NCBI GenBank assembly: GCA_913047725.1
Contig: CAJWTH010000003.1
Coordinates: forward strand, 1 to 57,906
Direction of reading: 5' to 3'
DNA: 57,906 nt
DNA from: an uncultured Planktomarina sp.
Lineage (GTDB): Bacteria; Pseudomonadota; Alphaproteobacteria; Rhodobacterales; Rhodobacteraceae
Position numbers and translations under genes: made by a program. Below, in pieces: positions 36,348 to 42,969 of this stretch. The notes beneath the pieces are model-generated. The model made no database searches. It was given only the letters and a program-made list of their open reading frames with translations, and was not told the DNA's origin. The stretch's first letter is position 1; each line of letters starts with the position of its first letter.

Positions 36348-36376
36348 CAGTATCGATGCTGAAAGAGTTTAGCACA

Positions 36377-38071
36377 CTAATCTTTATGTTCTAAATCTAT
36401 AATTTGTGTCTGGAGCTTTAAATAAGCTTTAAAAATGTCACCTTCTGAGATGACTCCCATTAATGTATTGTCTGATTGATCTAAAACTGGGATTGCTTCA
36501 CCGATAAAATCAGATGCGACTTCAATTGCTTGCTGAAGAGACGCATCTGAATTGAGAAAAATTGGCTTTTCATCAACATAGGGAATTAACAAATCTTCAG
36601 TTTTAACCGAAACGAGTGAGCTGAGGTAAACCTTACCAGAAAAAGCTCCGGTTTCCTTTTCTATGTAAGCCTCACTTTTATTGTCAGTTGCCATTCGCTC
36701 TATAGCATTAGCCACGGTAGTTTCTGCCTTGACCGTGATAAAATCAGCAGAAATGAGTGGTTCAATAGAGTTTTCCATTAATAGTAAGCCACTGCGGCCG
36801 TGGCTCAGATCTATATTTCTAAGCAGTAATTGTTTGTCAAAATATGAATGTCCAAAATAGTGATGACTGAACATGATAGCAGTCACAATACCAGTTAAAG
36901 ACATCATGGCTAGCTCGTATGAGCCGGTAAGTTCCAGAACAATGATTGTCATCGATATGGGCGCACCTATTACCGCGCCAGCAACAGCAGCCATACCGCA
37001 GATAATTAATTCTGGACCTGATGAAACGTAAAGCCCAGCTATCGTTAAAATTTGAGATATAGCTGCACCGGCTGCTGCGCCAATAAGTAATGCTGGTGAG
37101 AAAACGCCGCCAAAAAAGCCAAACCCAAGTGAAATAGATGTAGCGATTATTTTTCCAAATAGAATAAGAAGAACTACGACCAACAAGGTTTCGTTTTGAA
37201 GCAGAGACCAGAGGGTTTGTGACCCAAGGCCCATTACTCCCGGTACAAGCGCACCAATTAAGCTGAGGCACGGTACCATTATCACTGCTGAATGCAGTGG
37301 TTTTAATTTAAGTAATTTGGGTAATGATGCAAAGAATAATAATGACCTCATAAATACGACAGCAATAAATCCGAATATTGGTCCAACCAAACACGATATT
37401 AAAATCATTAAGCCCATGTTTTCATTCAATATTGTTTGTTCAAAAAATGGTACTGATGGCCAAACTGCTTGTGTTATTCCAAAGGATACTGTTGAGGCTA
37501 TTGCAATCGGGGCTAAGGCTTTAAAAGCAAAATGCCTCAAAATTGCTTCATGTGCAAAAATTATACCGGCAAATGGCGCGCCAAAACCTGCTGATATAGC
37601 TGCAGCAATTCCAGCTCCTATGAAAACATCAGTGGAAAAGTTTAGTGAAATCTTTGTTTTCAACCATGAGCCAATAGTTGCGCCAAGATGAACAAGTGGA
37701 CCATATTGGCCAACTGATGCTCCACCAGAGGCAGATATAAAAGCGGCCAATGTACTAAAAATTCCCAGTTTAATATTTATTTCGTTATCTATTCTATGAA
37801 CAGAATAAATAGTGTCTGCCGGGCCTTGCCATTCTTTAGAAATGGAAATTTTCTTCAGCCACAGTATACTGAAAACTGCCAGACCAAGAGTAAAATTATA
37901 AAGAATAAACCTTTGAGTAAAAGTTTCGGGTCTTTCAAAGATAACACTTATTAGATTGATTCCCGATCTAAAGTAATGTGCTGTTACCGCTCCTGCAGCA
38001 CCCAAGATTACGCCAACAAACAGAGCTCCCAACAACAGTAAAACAGCATTATTTGATACTTTAATCGCCAA
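36377..38071 (-). CDS. ClC-family chloride channel/transporter with CBS domains, variant filter
   Basis: A 564-residue ClC protein with about ten hydrophobic helices (residues 1-420) and two C-terminal CBS domains (about 430-555) that may sense nucleotides. The GGVFSPAL filter segment is normal. The segment that is GREGP in ClC antiporters is GQYGP here (residues 121-125 in ASVGQYGPLVHLG), so Tyr123 replaces the gating glutamate, and the first filter segment (normally GSGIP) reads like QGPADT. It may be a channel or an uncoupled carrier rather than a Cl-/H+ antiporter. It is monocistronic and convergent with rmuC. Confidence 0.9.
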   Translation of the reverse strand: MAIKVSNNAVLLLLGALFVGVILGAAGAVTAHYFRSGINLISVIFERPETFTQRFILYNFTLGLAVFSILWLKKISISKEWQGPADTIYSVHRIDNEINIKLGIFSTLAAFISASGGASVGQYGPLVHLGATIGSWLKTKISLNFSTDVFIGAGIAAAISAGFGAPFAGIIFAHEAILRHFAFKALAPIAIASTVSFGITQAVWPSVPFFEQTILNENMGLMILISCLVGPIFGFIAVVFMRSLLFFASLPKLLKLKPLHSAVIMVPCLSLIGALVPGVMGLGSQTLWSLLQNETLLVVVLLILFGKIIATSISLGFGFFGGVFSPALLIGAAAGAAISQILTIAGLYVSSGPELIICGMAAVAGAVIGAPISMTIIVLELTGSYELAMMSLTGIVTAIMFSHHYFGHSYFDKQLLLRNIDLSHGRSGLLLMENSIEPLISADFITVKAETTVANAIERMATDNKSEAYIEKETGAFSGKVYLSSLVSVKTEDLLIPYVDEKPIFLNSDASLQQAIEVASDFIGEAIPVLDQSDNTLMGVISEGDIFKAYLKLQTQIIDLEHKD

Positions 38072-38268
38072 TTTTAAAGCTCGCTAAACTAATTTATTTC
38101 ATTTTAAGTAGTTTCTTTTAGGTCTCACTACTACTTAATTTTTTTTTAACTAGTCTACTTCGCCTTTGGGAACAGCTCTTGAAAATAGGTTTTAAAGGTG
38201 TCAGCAGCGATTTATGATTATTTAACGGGAAAGAATTACTGGCTAGATGTAAATTCCTTTTAGGTGAT

Positions 38269-38916
38269 TTAAATTCCTAAGAAACGCTGTGCCAGTCTTG
38301 GAAACCATGAATTAAAACGTAGTGGCGCATCAGTGGCGGTAAGACAAATACAATCTTCACCGATGTCTGCCATAGGCGTATGCTCAAGGCTTTGGTCAGC
38401 CGTTTCTACATCACCAACTGTGAACCTAGCGGTTTCATCAGAGAAAGCACCTTTCAGTACCAGTGTTAGTTCGGTGCCACGGTGCCCATGATCTGGGACG
38501 ACTGAACCGGCTGGAATGTAGAGCAATCGCGCAGTAGCTGATTTGGACGTTTTCAACACGGCTTGGCGTACGCCCATACCAATTGGACGCCATTTAATAT
38601 CATCTAAACTGCTGCCAACATATGCGGCTAATGGATTTGGGATCTTATTTTGTGGTTCAGAACCTTTAATTCCTGGCATCTTTGAAATTAAAGTTAAGGT
38701 ATTTGCCAAGGCATCTTTGGACATTGAAACCTTTGCTGTTTCGTCTAGGAAAACCCCACCAACAGAGTCAAAGGCTTGGGCAGCTGCCCGACATTCGTCA
38801 CACATTTCTAAGTGGGTTGCCACTATTAGATTGAAGGCCTCGGGAAGTGCCCCTGCGGAATATGCTAATAATATTTCATCGTGTAGGTGGTGTTTTATAT
38901 CATTCATATCATTCAT
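38269..38916 (-). CDS. chrR: Zinc anti-sigma factor ChrR
   Basis: A 215-residue two-domain anti-sigma factor. The N-terminal zinc domain carries HH at residues 9-10 and HLEMCDEC (H35, C39, C42), matching the H...HxxxCxxC ligand set that inhibits RpoE. The C-terminal cupin has PDHGHRGTELTLVLKG and LEHTP, matching the His/Glu metal ligands that ChrR needs to respond to singlet oxygen. The ATG overlaps the rpoE stop in ATGA, so the two are translationally coupled. In Rhodobacter the pair controls genes against singlet oxygen; the same is inferred here. Confidence 0.93.
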   Translation of the reverse strand: MNDMNDIKHHLHDEILLAYSAGALPEAFNLIVATHLEMCDECRAAAQAFDSVGGVFLDETAKVSMSKDALANTLTLISKMPGIKGSEPQNKIPNPLAAYVGSSLDDIKWRPIGMGVRQAVLKTSKSATARLLYIPAGSVVPDHGHRGTELTLVLKGAFSDETARFTVGDVETADQSLEHTPMADIGEDCICLTATDAPLRFNSWFPRLAQRFLGI

Positions 38917-39458
38917 TTCATGGACTGACGTAATTTCTCTAATGCTAATCTAAGGCGCGATTTGATTGTGCCAAGGGGCAAGCCAGTTTCTATGGCAATT
39001 TCGCTATGACTTAAATCGCCAAAATAAGCTTTTTGTAGAAGTGCTAGCTGTGCATCGGGCAGTACTGACATCGCTAATCTCAGTTGCTCTGTTTCTTGTT
39101 GCAAGGTTAAAATATCAACTGCTTCAGGCTCAGATTCTGGGCCCCAGGTTAAATCTTCTGGCTCAGGGCGGCGCTGTTTACGAAACGCGTCAATATTTTT
39201 GTTTCTGGCAATTGTGAAAATCCAAGTTGATACACTTGCACGGCTTGGGTCAAATAAAGGTGCTTTGAGCCAGACGGTTGCCATGACCTCCTGTGCGCAG
39301 TCTTCTGCCATGCTGTTGGAGGCTCCAGATCTTATTAGAAAAGATTTAACACGAGGCGCAAAATAATGAAAAAGTTCCGCAAAAGCTTTCGGATCTTGGC
39401 TTTTTTGTACCTGCTGCAGTTCTTTAACCCAATTGTTTAGAGGTTTAGTTTTGGTCAC
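38913..39458 (-). CDS. rpoE: RNA polymerase sigma factor RpoE (ECF, ChrR-controlled)
   Basis: An ECF sigma factor of 181 residues: sigma-2 (CAQEVMATVWLKAPLFDP, STWIFTIARNKNIDAFRKQ) and sigma-4 (LPDAQLALLQKAYFGDLSHSEIA, LPLGTIKSRLRLALEKLR). With ChrR encoded in the same operon it belongs to the group that answers singlet oxygen in Rhodobacter. It is divergent from the operon at 39684, which carries a good candidate RpoE promoter. I did not find an equally clear RpoE promoter for rpoE itself on the minus strand. Confidence 0.94.
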   Translation of the reverse strand: MTKTKPLNNWVKELQQVQKSQDPKAFAELFHYFAPRVKSFLIRSGASNSMAEDCAQEVMATVWLKAPLFDPSRASVSTWIFTIARNKNIDAFRKQRRPEPEDLTWGPESEPEAVDILTLQQETEQLRLAMSVLPDAQLALLQKAYFGDLSHSEIAIETGLPLGTIKSRLRLALEKLRQSMK

Positions 39459-39626
39459 AGCTGGGGGTGTAGCCTTTTGGTTAATATGGATTAGATCTTA
39501 GAAAACAGTATAGGGGATTTGTTTGATAGATGCACTAGATTCATGATGCCTTTCTAAATTTTCACACATATTGTATCCACACCAAAGAATTTATTTCCGA
39601 CCAACTAAAAACAAATTTTCTAAATG

Positions 39627-39655
39627 TAATCTGTTTGCAAGCTGACTACGTAAGA
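39627..39655 (+). promoter_or_regulatory. Candidate RpoE-dependent promoter
   Basis: TAATCT (39627-39632) and GTAAGA (39650-39655) are spaced by 17 bases, 28 bp before the first gene of the operon at 39684. Rhodobacter RpoE promoters are of the TGATCC / CGTAAGA type; the -10 element ACGTAAGA agrees very well, the -35 less so. Its position opposite rpoE-chrR is what the known regulon would predict. Confidence 0.55.
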
Positions 39656-39683
39656 AAATTAAATAATAATAAAGGGCCAATAG

Positions 39684-40982
39684 ATGCCATTTGAGAATAT
39701 CCAAGCAGACAAAAGGCGAATAGCGATTATCGGGGGTGGGGTTTCAGGACTGGGCGCCGCTTACGCGCTTCGAACATCAGAAAATGTAGTGTTGTTCGAA
39801 TCTGGTACAAAATTAGGAGGTCATGCCCGAACTGTATTGGCAGGCAAAAATGGAAACATGCCCGTGGATACAGGGTTTTTAGTCTATAATAATGTAAACT
39901 ATCCCCGCCTAACAGAATTATTTGATGAACTAGAGGTACCAACAATTCCGTCAGATATGAGCTTTGGAGCGTCAATTGATGGTGGATGGCTCGAATACGG
40001 AATATTAGCTCCGAAGGCAATCATAGCCCAAAAACGCAACATTTTTAGGCCAAAGTTCCTTGGAATGATGCGCGATATATTAAGATTTAATAAGTTGGCT
40101 AACAGCAATGTCATTGATCCTAATGTCACGATTGGAAGTCTTATTAAAAATTGGGGATTGGGGAATTGGTTCCGAGACTATTATCTGACCCCTTTCACTG
40201 GTGCAATTTGGTCCACACCGATAACTAAAATTTTGGATTTTCCAGCGCTTCCAATGATAAAGTTTATGAAAAACCATGCTTTACTGGGAACGGGTGGCCA
40301 ACACAATTGGCGTACAGTCAATGGTGGCTCATATGAGTACGTGCACCGTGTTGAAAACACGCTTCGAGAAGTAGGTGTTGAGATACGTTTGTCTGCGGCA
40401 GTAACGTCTGTACGCCGCGTTGATAGTGGTGTTGAGGTAAAAGCGGCTGGTGGCGTTTATGAATACTTTGATGAAGTAATCTTTGCTACTCACTCTAACA
40501 CCACATTAGAGTTGTTAAGCGATCCAACTGAGATCGAGCAAAGTTCACTGAATTCAATTAAATACCAATCCAACACAATGGTGCTGCATGCCGATACTTC
40601 AATAATGCCAAAACGAAAAGCGGCCTGGGCTTCTTGGGTATACACTGAGGAAAAAAACCGAAAATCAGATCATATTGATCTGACTTATTGGATCAACCGT
40701 CTTCAAAGTTTGCCAGAAGATGATCCTTGCTTTGTAACTCTTAATACCAAGCGACCAATAAAGCCGCATCTAATTTATGACGAATATGTTTTTAATCACC
40801 CAGTTTTTGACTTGGCAGCTTTGCAAGGGCAGCGAAATTTAGCCGATTCAAATGGTACTAATTCGACTTGGTTTTGTGGTGCATGGATGCGAAATGGCTT
40901 TCATGAGGATGGTTTAGCCACTGGTATGGAGGTCGCACGCCGTATACTCGACCAATCTGCCAGCATGATCGCAGCTGAGTAA
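39684..40982 (+). CDS. FAD-dependent oxidoreductase of the ChrR/RpoE operon (RSP1091/UfaD-like)
   Basis: A 432-residue flavin amine-oxidase-like protein with the Rossmann motif IAIIGGGVSGLGAAYALR and FESGTKLGGHARTV near the N-terminus and FCGAWMRNGFHEDGLATGMEVA at the end. Position and order match the Rhodobacter sphaeroides operon RSP1091-1087 beside rpoE-chrR, whose first member has been tied to unsaturated/furan fatty acid formation and to ChrR turnover. The substrate is therefore probably a membrane fatty acyl chain. The stop codon shares one base with the next ATG. Confidence 0.85.
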   Translation: MPFENIQADKRRIAIIGGGVSGLGAAYALRTSENVVLFESGTKLGGHARTVLAGKNGNMPVDTGFLVYNNVNYPRLTELFDELEVPTIPSDMSFGASIDGGWLEYGILAPKAIIAQKRNIFRPKFLGMMRDILRFNKLANSNVIDPNVTIGSLIKNWGLGNWFRDYYLTPFTGAIWSTPITKILDFPALPMIKFMKNHALLGTGGQHNWRTVNGGSYEYVHRVENTLREVGVEIRLSAAVTSVRRVDSGVEVKAAGGVYEYFDEVIFATHSNTTLELLSDPTEIEQSSLNSIKYQSNTMVLHADTSIMPKRKAAWASWVYTEEKNRKSDHIDLTYWINRLQSLPEDDPCFVTLNTKRPIKPHLIYDEYVFNHPVFDLAALQGQRNLADSNGTNSTWFCGAWMRNGFHEDGLATGMEVARRILDQSASMIAAE

Positions 40983-41734
40983 TGGGTATGGATTATATCC
41001 AAGCTCACACTTTTCATGGACGAAAAGGCCAAATCGAAAACTCATTTAGTTATGCGGTAGACTATTTGCTACTTGATTTTAAGAGCAAAAAACGATTTCC
41101 TAAGCTCTTTTCTCACAATCATTTTAATTTTTTTAGTATTTACGACAAAGATCACGGTGGCCCACCGAAAAATGGAATTGGTTTAAGCTGGGTGCAAAAC
41201 ATTTTGAAGGTAAATGACCTTCCTGGCCAAGAGAGTATTTTTCTTCTAGCGCAGCCACGTCTTTTTGGATTTGTTTTTAATCCAGTAAGTTTTTGGTTAT
41301 GCTTTGATTCACATGATAATCTCCGTGTGGTAATTGCCGAAGTAAGTAACACTTTTGGCCAGCGGCACTGCTATTTGTGCCACCGTGATGACCTTGGGCC
41401 AATCACGGGGTTTGATACAATTACGGCAGAAAAAGTTTTTCATGTTTCCCCATTTCAACCTGTTGAGGGCACCTATTGCTTTAACTTTGATATCAGTACT
41501 GACTGGATTTCGATATCAATAGAATACAAGCGCAAAGAAGGTGGCTTAGTCGCAACTCTAGTGGGCCCACGCCAGCTTCTGACAAACCGATCTATTTTAT
41601 TATCGATATTGCGTCGGCCGTTTGGATCCAGGAGGGTCTTGGCACTAATACATTGGCAAGCAGTAAGGCTTTGGTGGCGAAAGGCAACTTTTCGTTCTTG
41701 CCCAGAGGCCCCGCACAATGATGTGAGCAGATGA
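40982..41734 (+). CDS. DUF1365 protein of the ChrR/RpoE operon (RSP1090-like)
   Basis: A 250-residue DUF1365 protein, recognised by the N-terminal HTFHGRKGQIENSFSYAVDYL, the central LLAQPRLFGFVFNPVSFWLC and VSNTFGQRHCYLC. DUF1365 genes accompany FAD oxidoreductases and cyclopropane-synthase-like enzymes acting on phospholipid acyl chains; the biochemical step is not known to me. The start overlaps the FAD gene by one base and its stop overlaps the transporter start, so the genes are tightly coupled. No cyclopropane/methylase gene is inserted here. Confidence 0.88.
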   Translation: MGMDYIQAHTFHGRKGQIENSFSYAVDYLLLDFKSKKRFPKLFSHNHFNFFSIYDKDHGGPPKNGIGLSWVQNILKVNDLPGQESIFLLAQPRLFGFVFNPVSFWLCFDSHDNLRVVIAEVSNTFGQRHCYLCHRDDLGPITGFDTITAEKVFHVSPFQPVEGTYCFNFDISTDWISISIEYKRKEGGLVATLVGPRQLLTNRSILLSILRRPFGSRRVLALIHWQAVRLWWRKATFRSCPEAPHNDVSR

Positions 41735-42969
41735 CAGCTGTAAACAATATTTCTCCACCAGCATTTGCTCTATTTGGTGGCATGCTCGCCGCTGCAGGCA
41801 TACCGATTTATATTTTTGCACCAACGTTTTACGCTGAAAATTACGGCTTAAGTCTTACAAGCATTGCAGCTGTTTTATTTTGGTTGCGATTGGTGGATGC
41901 GGTACAGGATCCGTTGTTTGGATGGGCATCCGAAAATATTGGGCGTGAACGTCGTTTTTGGGTAGCTTTTGCAGTTATTATTTTGGTTGGGTCTATGGCT
42001 CTACTTTTTGCTGTGCCACCCCAAACGTCACCCCTTTTTTGGTTTGCAATCTCGATGACTGGGCTGTTCAGTGCATTTAGTTTTTTAACAATCAACTTTT
42101 ATGCGCAGGGTATTACTGCTGCTGCTGAGTTGCCTGGTGGCCACATGCAATTAGCGGCATGGCGTGAAACTGGTGCATTGATTGGAATCTGTTTAGCTTC
42201 TGTTGCTCCAGGATTATTTATCCTTTGGGGCATGGAGCCAATGCTTATCTTCACATTAACTTTTGGGTGCGTTGGTTTAATTTCTTTATGGATGATGAAA
42301 AGCCAATGGGTAGTTCTTGTTAAAAGAAAGCCGTCAAATTTTCTATTAGTGTGGCAAGATAGAAGTACAAGGCTATTATTAATTCTGGCATTCATAAATG
42401 CCCTGCCAGTTGCGGTGACCTCTTCACTATTTTTGTTTTTTGTTGGCCACCAACTTCAGGCCCCTGCCTGGGCAGGTGGGCTTCTAATGTTATTTTTCCT
42501 TTCTGCAGCTGCTGCTGCACCAATATGGACAATGGCGTCACGGCGATATGGAACGCGTCGCTGTCTAATAATTGCTATGAGCCTGGCTGTGATAATATTT
42601 GCATTAAGTGGAACTCTAAAGTCGGGTGATATTTGGATCTTTTTAATTGTCTGTATGGTTTCTGGTGCATCTATCAGTGCAGACTTAACCTTAATGCCAG
42701 CCGCCTTCGCTCAAAGACTTGCAGTAATAGCACCGAATGGAGGGCAGGGCTTTGGGCTTTGGTCTTTGATGAATAAGCTTACGCTGGCCCTTGCTGCGAT
42801 TGTACTTTTCCCATTGCTCGAGCTTTCTGGTTTCGATGCAACCGTGGCTCAGCAGACTGATAGTGCCTTAACGATGCTGACCGTGTTATATGCAATTTGT
42901 CCATTGTTTCTAAAACTAATTGCAATATTAATTTTAATTAAAACCCCACTGCAGGATGATCGGTTATGA
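41731..42969 (+). CDS. MFS transporter, GPH-like (RSP1089-like)
   Basis: A 412-residue membrane protein with about twelve hydrophobic helices. The region after helix 2 (WLRLVDAVQDPLFGWASEN, then GRERRFW) is typical of the glycoside-pentoside-hexuronide cation symporter group. In this operon it more likely moves a lipid-related molecule or acts as a flippase, but that is inference from context only. ATGA overlaps link it to both neighbours. Confidence 0.85.
   Translation: MTAVNNISPPAFALFGGMLAAAGIPIYIFAPTFYAENYGLSLTSIAAVLFWLRLVDAVQDPLFGWASENIGRERRFWVAFAVIILVGSMALLFAVPPQTSPLFWFAISMTGLFSAFSFLTINFYAQGITAAAELPGGHMQLAAWRETGALIGICLASVAPGLFILWGMEPMLIFTLTFGCVGLISLWMMKSQWVVLVKRKPSNFLLVWQDRSTRLLLILAFINALPVAVTSSLFLFFVGHQLQAPAWAGGLLMLFFLSAAAAAPIWTMASRRYGTRRCLIIAMSLAVIIFALSGTLKSGDIWIFLIVCMVSGASISADLTLMPAAFAQRLAVIAPNGGQGFGLWSLMNKLTLALAAIVLFPLLELSGFDATVAQQTDSALTMLTVLYAICPLFLKLIAILILIKTPLQDDRL

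Follow-up and report, generated by a model that had tools for sequence, protein, structure and literature searches.

A tyrosine at the gating-glutamate position in a clade of bacterial CLC proteins linked to flagellar gene clusters

A CLC gene in the Planktomarina window

The window analysed here, a stretch of 57,906 nucleotides from an uncultured Planktomarina sp. (contig CAJWTH010000003.1), carries a gene encoding a CLC protein with tyrosine at the gating position (Table 1). The open reading frame described in a first-pass annotation made from the letters alone was confirmed, and lies on the minus strand. It starts with a TTG codon at 38071 and ends at 36377, and this start is supported by a congener with 86% identity that reads ATG-AIKVSNN at the same codon. 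The product matches the Pfam Voltage_CLC profile (PF00654, 4.2e-61), and its AlphaFold model, with a mean pLDDT of 89.4, matches the structures of CLC-2, AtCLCa and CLC-ec1 in Foldseek searches. The protein belongs to the CLC superfamily both by this profile, which matches across the CLC domain, and by its fold. Its score against the ClcB-like equivalog NF002505 (173.7 bits) falls below the curated cut-off of 482.

Table 1. Coordinates of the CLC gene, of its main sequence features and of the insertion that carries it.
Feature	Position	Strand	Basis or remark
Tyr-type CLC protein gene	36377..38071	minus	564 aa; transmembrane CLC domain and C-terminal CBS region
CBS domain (residues 500-551), containing S542-E-G-D545	36419..36574	minus	Pfam PF00571, 9.2e-10
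Phe411, at the Tyr_C position (CLC-ec1 Y445)	36839..36841	minus	alignment
A-H-E-A (residues 173-176): His174 = CLC-ec1 I201, Glu175 = E202, Ala176 = Glu_in (E203) position	37544..37555	minus	alignment
GQYGP (residues 121-125), with Tyr123 at the Glu_ex position (CLC-ec1 E148)	37697..37711	minus	alignment with CLC-ec1
GPAD (residues 83-86) = CLC-ec1 G108-I109-P110-E111; Ser_C not conserved	37814..37825	minus	alignment
Insertion with the CLC gene, flanked by chrR and rmuC	36348..38268		comparison with congeners

The protein had also been credited with two CBS domains. The predicted fold does present a C-terminal domain with two repeats, but Pfam scores just one CBS domain. Conservation extends over the C-terminal half of the CBS region, with E543 and D545 invariant in A1, and residues 542-545 fit the S/T-x-x-D pattern of CBS sites that bind nucleotides. 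The CBS domain of Tyr-type CLCs probably senses adenine nucleotides, this S-x-x-D motif being the one piece of evidence that points in that direction.

Extent of the tyrosine clade and its pore residues

Relatives were sought first in the genus and then in 84,980 species genomes, using scan patterns ([AT]GI[IV]FAHE and FGF[FA]GGVF) of which the gate motif was not part, and the best 80 loci (L032-L111) were taken for analysis. All of them encode Tyr at the gate. In a tree of 104 rows including Glu-type cousins from the phylum, all 65 Tyr rows lie on one side of one branch and the change from Glu to Tyr occurs once (SH-aLRT 97, in a quick tree search that left some branches long). The earliest of the Tyr rows (L177) carries the motif GRYGP. 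Tyr-type CLCs are a monophyletic bacterial clade, nested among bacterial CBS-CLCs, in which the gating glutamate was lost once. The presence of Tyr in 65/65 clade members indicates that Tyr123 is not the product of chance or of sequencing error.

A survey of prevalence recovered the exact pattern in 7/249 Rhodobacteraceae genomes and in 6/399 genomes sampled across the phylum, and the Tyr-type pattern is therefore uncommon overall. Clade members are marine alpha- and gammaproteobacteria, and the best 80 loci correspond by title mostly to marine pelagic groups (Planktomarina, other Rhodobacteraceae, SAR116, PS1, SAR92, Litoricola, HIMB30 and Halieaceae). Searches for viral copies of the Tyr-type gene returned none. 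Two contigs titled Bacteroidota (L040 and L044; Crocinitomicaceae and Flavobacteriaceae) contain Rhodobacteraceae-type loci and are probably misbinned MAG contigs. One genome (G012) encodes, away from flagellar genes, a second Tyr-type CLC (L127:9454-11280) that spans two frames with in-frame TGA and TAG codons and is apparently a pseudogene.

Alignment with CLC-ec1 and with cousins of the clade places Tyr123 at the position of the gating glutamate (E148), as the first-pass annotation had proposed, and a DNA pattern for the gate region matches the window at 37683-37711. This alignment revealed no Glu or Asp, specific to the Tyr clade, that takes over at the gate: the clade-conserved acidic residues near the pore, D86 and E175 (E111 and E202 in CLC-ec1), are also present in GREGP-bearing cousins. 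The loss goes beyond what was first claimed, with Glu_in gone as well and the pattern invariant across the clade. Of the features expected in CLC-ec1-type antiporters, Glu_ex within GREGP is replaced by Tyr123 and Glu_in by Ala176, and the natural absence of the gating glutamate that defines gate-less CLC channels extends to 65/65 clade rows.

Besides Tyr123, several residues distinguish the clade from its Glu-type cousins. These include His174 (65/65 Tyr clade rows versus 2/38 cousins), Pro84 in place of CLC-ec1 I109 (59/65 rows) and Gln or Ile in place of CLC-ec1 R147. His174 (37550-37552) adjoins the E202 equivalent and could constitute a new titratable site. The losses of Ser_C and Glu_in and the change of Tyr_C to Phe are, on the other hand, common to cousins that keep GREGP. 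The degenerate first filter motif to which attention had been drawn is indeed present, but it is not diagnostic and was rejected as special evidence; like the missing Glu_in and the Phe at Tyr_C, it is non-specific, since the GREGP cousins show the same. Around the pore, the equivalents of CLC-ec1 F190, F357, GGVFSP and E202 remain conserved, and those of the inner-pore residues F348 and I356 (L315 and V323) are hydrophobic, whereas CLC-1-type channels typically have small polar residues there (PMC6019066).

Flagellar linkage and the relocated window copy

Genes neighbouring the best 80 loci were clustered and scanned with Pfam, and flagellar proteins of E. coli K-12 were used as independent probes. 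Flagellar matches were detected within 5 kb of the CLC gene in 46/80 Tyr-type loci and in 1/20 Glu-type loci (Fisher p ~1e-5, a value that overstates independence, as the loci are related), the single Glu-type match being of the motB/OmpA type. Flagellar neighbours identified by Pfam encompass fliS, fliD, flagellin, fliE, fliF, motA, motB, flaG and rod proteins; 12 further Tyr loci present a divergent FliS-cluster gene only, and the Planktomarina loci share the same gene order, with fliF some 7-8 kb away. Flagellar partners and gene orders differ between the alpha- and gammaproteobacterial groups. On plasmid pOA238_118 of Octadecabacter arcticus, the gene, which the NCBI annotation names 'chloride channel protein', immediately follows fliD within a flagellar cluster, and this copy falls in a separate, distant Tyr subclade of the tree. 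Flagellar linkage was observed neither in the window group nor in the Litoricola-type group, and some gammaproteobacterial relatives likewise show none.

The Tyr-type gene is linked to flagellar clusters and often also to a voltage-gated potassium channel. A Kv-type gene lies near the CLC gene in 20 loci, within ~210 bp in 11 of them, and 19/20 of these neighbours contain the TVGYGD filter. A NaChBac-type sodium channel was considered as the partner and rejected, TVGYGD being the filter of a K+ channel. In one locus (L107), motA, motB, a second motB, the Kv gene, the CLC gene and a Sel1-repeat gene touch or overlap each other. The two motB-like genes of this locus stand in tandem, flanked by motA and the gene for the K+ channel (L107:1562-3914). 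Sigma-54 activators are encoded near the CLC gene in several flagellar clusters. Also recurrent around it in Rhodobacteraceae flagellar clusters (L033-L038 and L040-L048) are several small, conserved genes with no known function, corresponding to clusters c15, c16, c17, c24, c36, c37 and c39. This gene linkage is unexpected and well supported, and neither the GQYGP string nor its flagellar association was found in the open-access literature searched.

At the genome level, FlhA was detected in 25/29 Tyr-type genomes and in 100/121 genomes of the family at large, and co-occurrence with flagella was rejected as support given this baseline. FlhA scores in the Rhodobacteraceae form two groups (~700-735 and >770 bits), which probably reflect different flagellar cluster types. 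In the family pattern survey, the five FlhA-positive Tyr-type genomes all belong to the high-scoring group, which makes up ~14% of the family, and this suggests that the Tyr-type gene is associated with a particular type of flagellar cluster. The same observation would also fit an ordinary CLC gene hitch-hiking with mobile flagellar clusters. Horizontal spread of the fla2 and fla3 clusters of Rhodobacterales, some of them on plasmids, is described in a preprint (PMC11974857) in which neither chloride nor ion channels are mentioned. We nevertheless regard hitch-hiking as unlikely: the linkage recurs with varied flagellar genes and orders in alphaproteobacteria, gammaproteobacteria and the distant Tyr subclade, and genes that touch Kv and mot genes suggest co-expression.

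The copy in the window is a descendant that was relocated away from the flagellar context. It lies between chrR and rmuC in the window and in three congeners, whereas in 11 congeners chrR and rmuC are adjacent and have no CLC gene between them. Another genome (G015) combines a window-type copy with two more CLC genes, one of which resides in a flagellar cluster. Searches of the window genome (a draft, 86% complete) found no FliF, FlhA or Kv homolog. The four window-type copies evolve under purifying selection (dN/dS 0.10-0.14), and a copy that is relocated but still selected implies a job not strictly dependent on the flagellum. In genome G004 (L124), which is 99% complete, no FliF was found and two stops interrupt FlhA, while fliS and the CLC gene are intact, indicating that the CLC gene can outlive the flagellum. 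The flagellar cluster of that genome is decaying.

Next to the insertion, positions 38269-42969 of the window encode an RpoE-like sigma factor paired with a ChrR anti-sigma factor, and genes for an FAD oxidoreductase, a DUF1365 protein and an MFS-type transporter run divergently from this pair. The whole group resembles the singlet-oxygen (RpoE-ChrR) regulon of Rhodobacter. Singlet-oxygen regulation was rejected as a general feature of the CLC gene, the chrR neighbourhood being confined to window-type copies; sigma-E-like patterns in the window did not exceed chance, and none was detected upstream of the CLC gene.

Proposed function and comparison with known systems

CLC-ec1 loses H+ transport but still moves Cl- when a non-protonatable residue takes the place of either proton glutamate (PMC3519907), and CLC-K channels, which have no glutamate gate, are inert to H+ transfer (PMC6019066). 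With both proton glutamates absent, these precedents make passive anion movement the most likely state, and we infer on sound grounds that Tyr-type CLCs would be proton-uncoupled. With moderate confidence, we propose that they form a CLC-K-like, proton-uncoupled passive anion pathway, its CBS region probably sensing adenine nucleotides, that was recruited to motility or membrane-potential control. The single change from Glu_ex to Tyr would have generated an uncoupled Cl- conductance by the same logic as in CLC-K; in marine cells that swim, the resulting anion leak may fix or steady the membrane potential and the balance of ions, with repolarisation falling to the paired K+ channel and shunting to the leak. 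This role in swimming is one that we infer from gene linkage only. It is also possible, albeit tentative, that gate-less nucleotide-sensing CLC, Kv and stator genes make up a flagellum-associated module that clamps or resets membrane potential during swimming and has spread with flagellar clusters, including those on plasmids. The first-pass reading of a nucleotide-sensing passive anion channel is, as a whole, partly supported.

Counting against the passive pathway are the hydrophobic L315 and V323 of the inner pore and the bulk of Tyr, which, in contrast to the Val of CLC-K, might obstruct the pore instead of opening it. The protein would then act as a non-conducting membrane sensor, signalling to motility via its CBS region, and both the conservation in the C-terminal half of that region and the sigma-54 activators near the gene in several flagellar clusters would fit such a role. 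The conserved pore-lining equivalents of F190, F357, GGVFSP and E202, together with the frequent pairing of the gene with another ion channel, make a plugged sensor as improbable as hitch-hiking. Somewhat more doubtful is a transporter still coupled to H+ by a rerouted proton path, in which Tyr123 and His174 would stand in for Glu_ex and Glu_in. His174, two residues before the Glu_in position, is invariant in the clade, and a dissociable Glu_in is dispensable in some CLC antiporters (PMC3519907). Yet no characterised CLC exchanger lacking Glu_ex was found in the literature searched, the pKa of the Tyr side chain, near 10, makes it a poor proton carrier at seawater pH, and His occurs at the same position in two Glu-type cousins.

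The least probable of the alternatives weighed is conduction of an anion other than chloride, such as nitrate, through a central site devoid of the Ser_C and Tyr_C hydroxyls: exchange of Pro for Ser_C shifts Cl-/NO3- preference in plant CLCs and Pro84 occupies a neighbouring position, but the same central-site changes, Pro excepted, occur in Glu-type cousins, and no nitrate or fluoride genes are prominent among the recurrent neighbours.

Bacterial CLCs are textbook proton-coupled exchangers and, to our knowledge, the known CLCs that naturally lack the gate are chiefly kidney channels of animals. The CLC-K channels (ClC-Ka/Kb) resemble the passive pathway proposed here in having naturally lost the gating glutamate within a CLC fold bearing CBS domains. 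They differ in having Val rather than Tyr at the gate, in keeping Tyr_C, in presenting a flipped Ser_C, which is absent here, and in requiring barttin; they are animal proteins only distantly similar to the window protein (a weak PDB match, 4e-6 in phmmer). This weak match and the nesting of the clade among bacterial CBS-CLCs, in a tree of Tyr-type rows and Glu-type cousins, would speak against a specific common descent with animal CLC-K. CLC-ec1 (ClcA) shares the fold, with a Foldseek TM-score of ~0.8 by target length, and the conserved E202, F190, F357 and GxFxP, but its identity to the window protein is ~20% in the structural alignment, its Glu_ex, Glu_in, Ser_C and Tyr_C are all replaced in the window protein, which has the CBS region in addition. 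The closest Glu-type relatives of the clade are ClcB-like CBS proteins of the PRK01862 type, which likewise present Val or Ala at Glu_in, a lost Ser_C and, in many of them, Phe for Tyr_C; they keep Glu_ex within GREGP and lie outside flagellar clusters, with a flagellar-type match in 1/20.

A bacterial clade with Tyr at the gate offers a natural test of the effect of this residue on coupling and conduction, and the recurrence of its genes in flagellar clusters alongside a K+ channel opens the link between membrane potential and swimming to direct testing in cultured marine strains. An ion channel tied to motility has a counterpart in NavBP of Bacillus pseudofirmus, a voltage-gated Na+ channel that takes part in motility and chemotaxis, although NavBP is a cation channel of unrelated fold.
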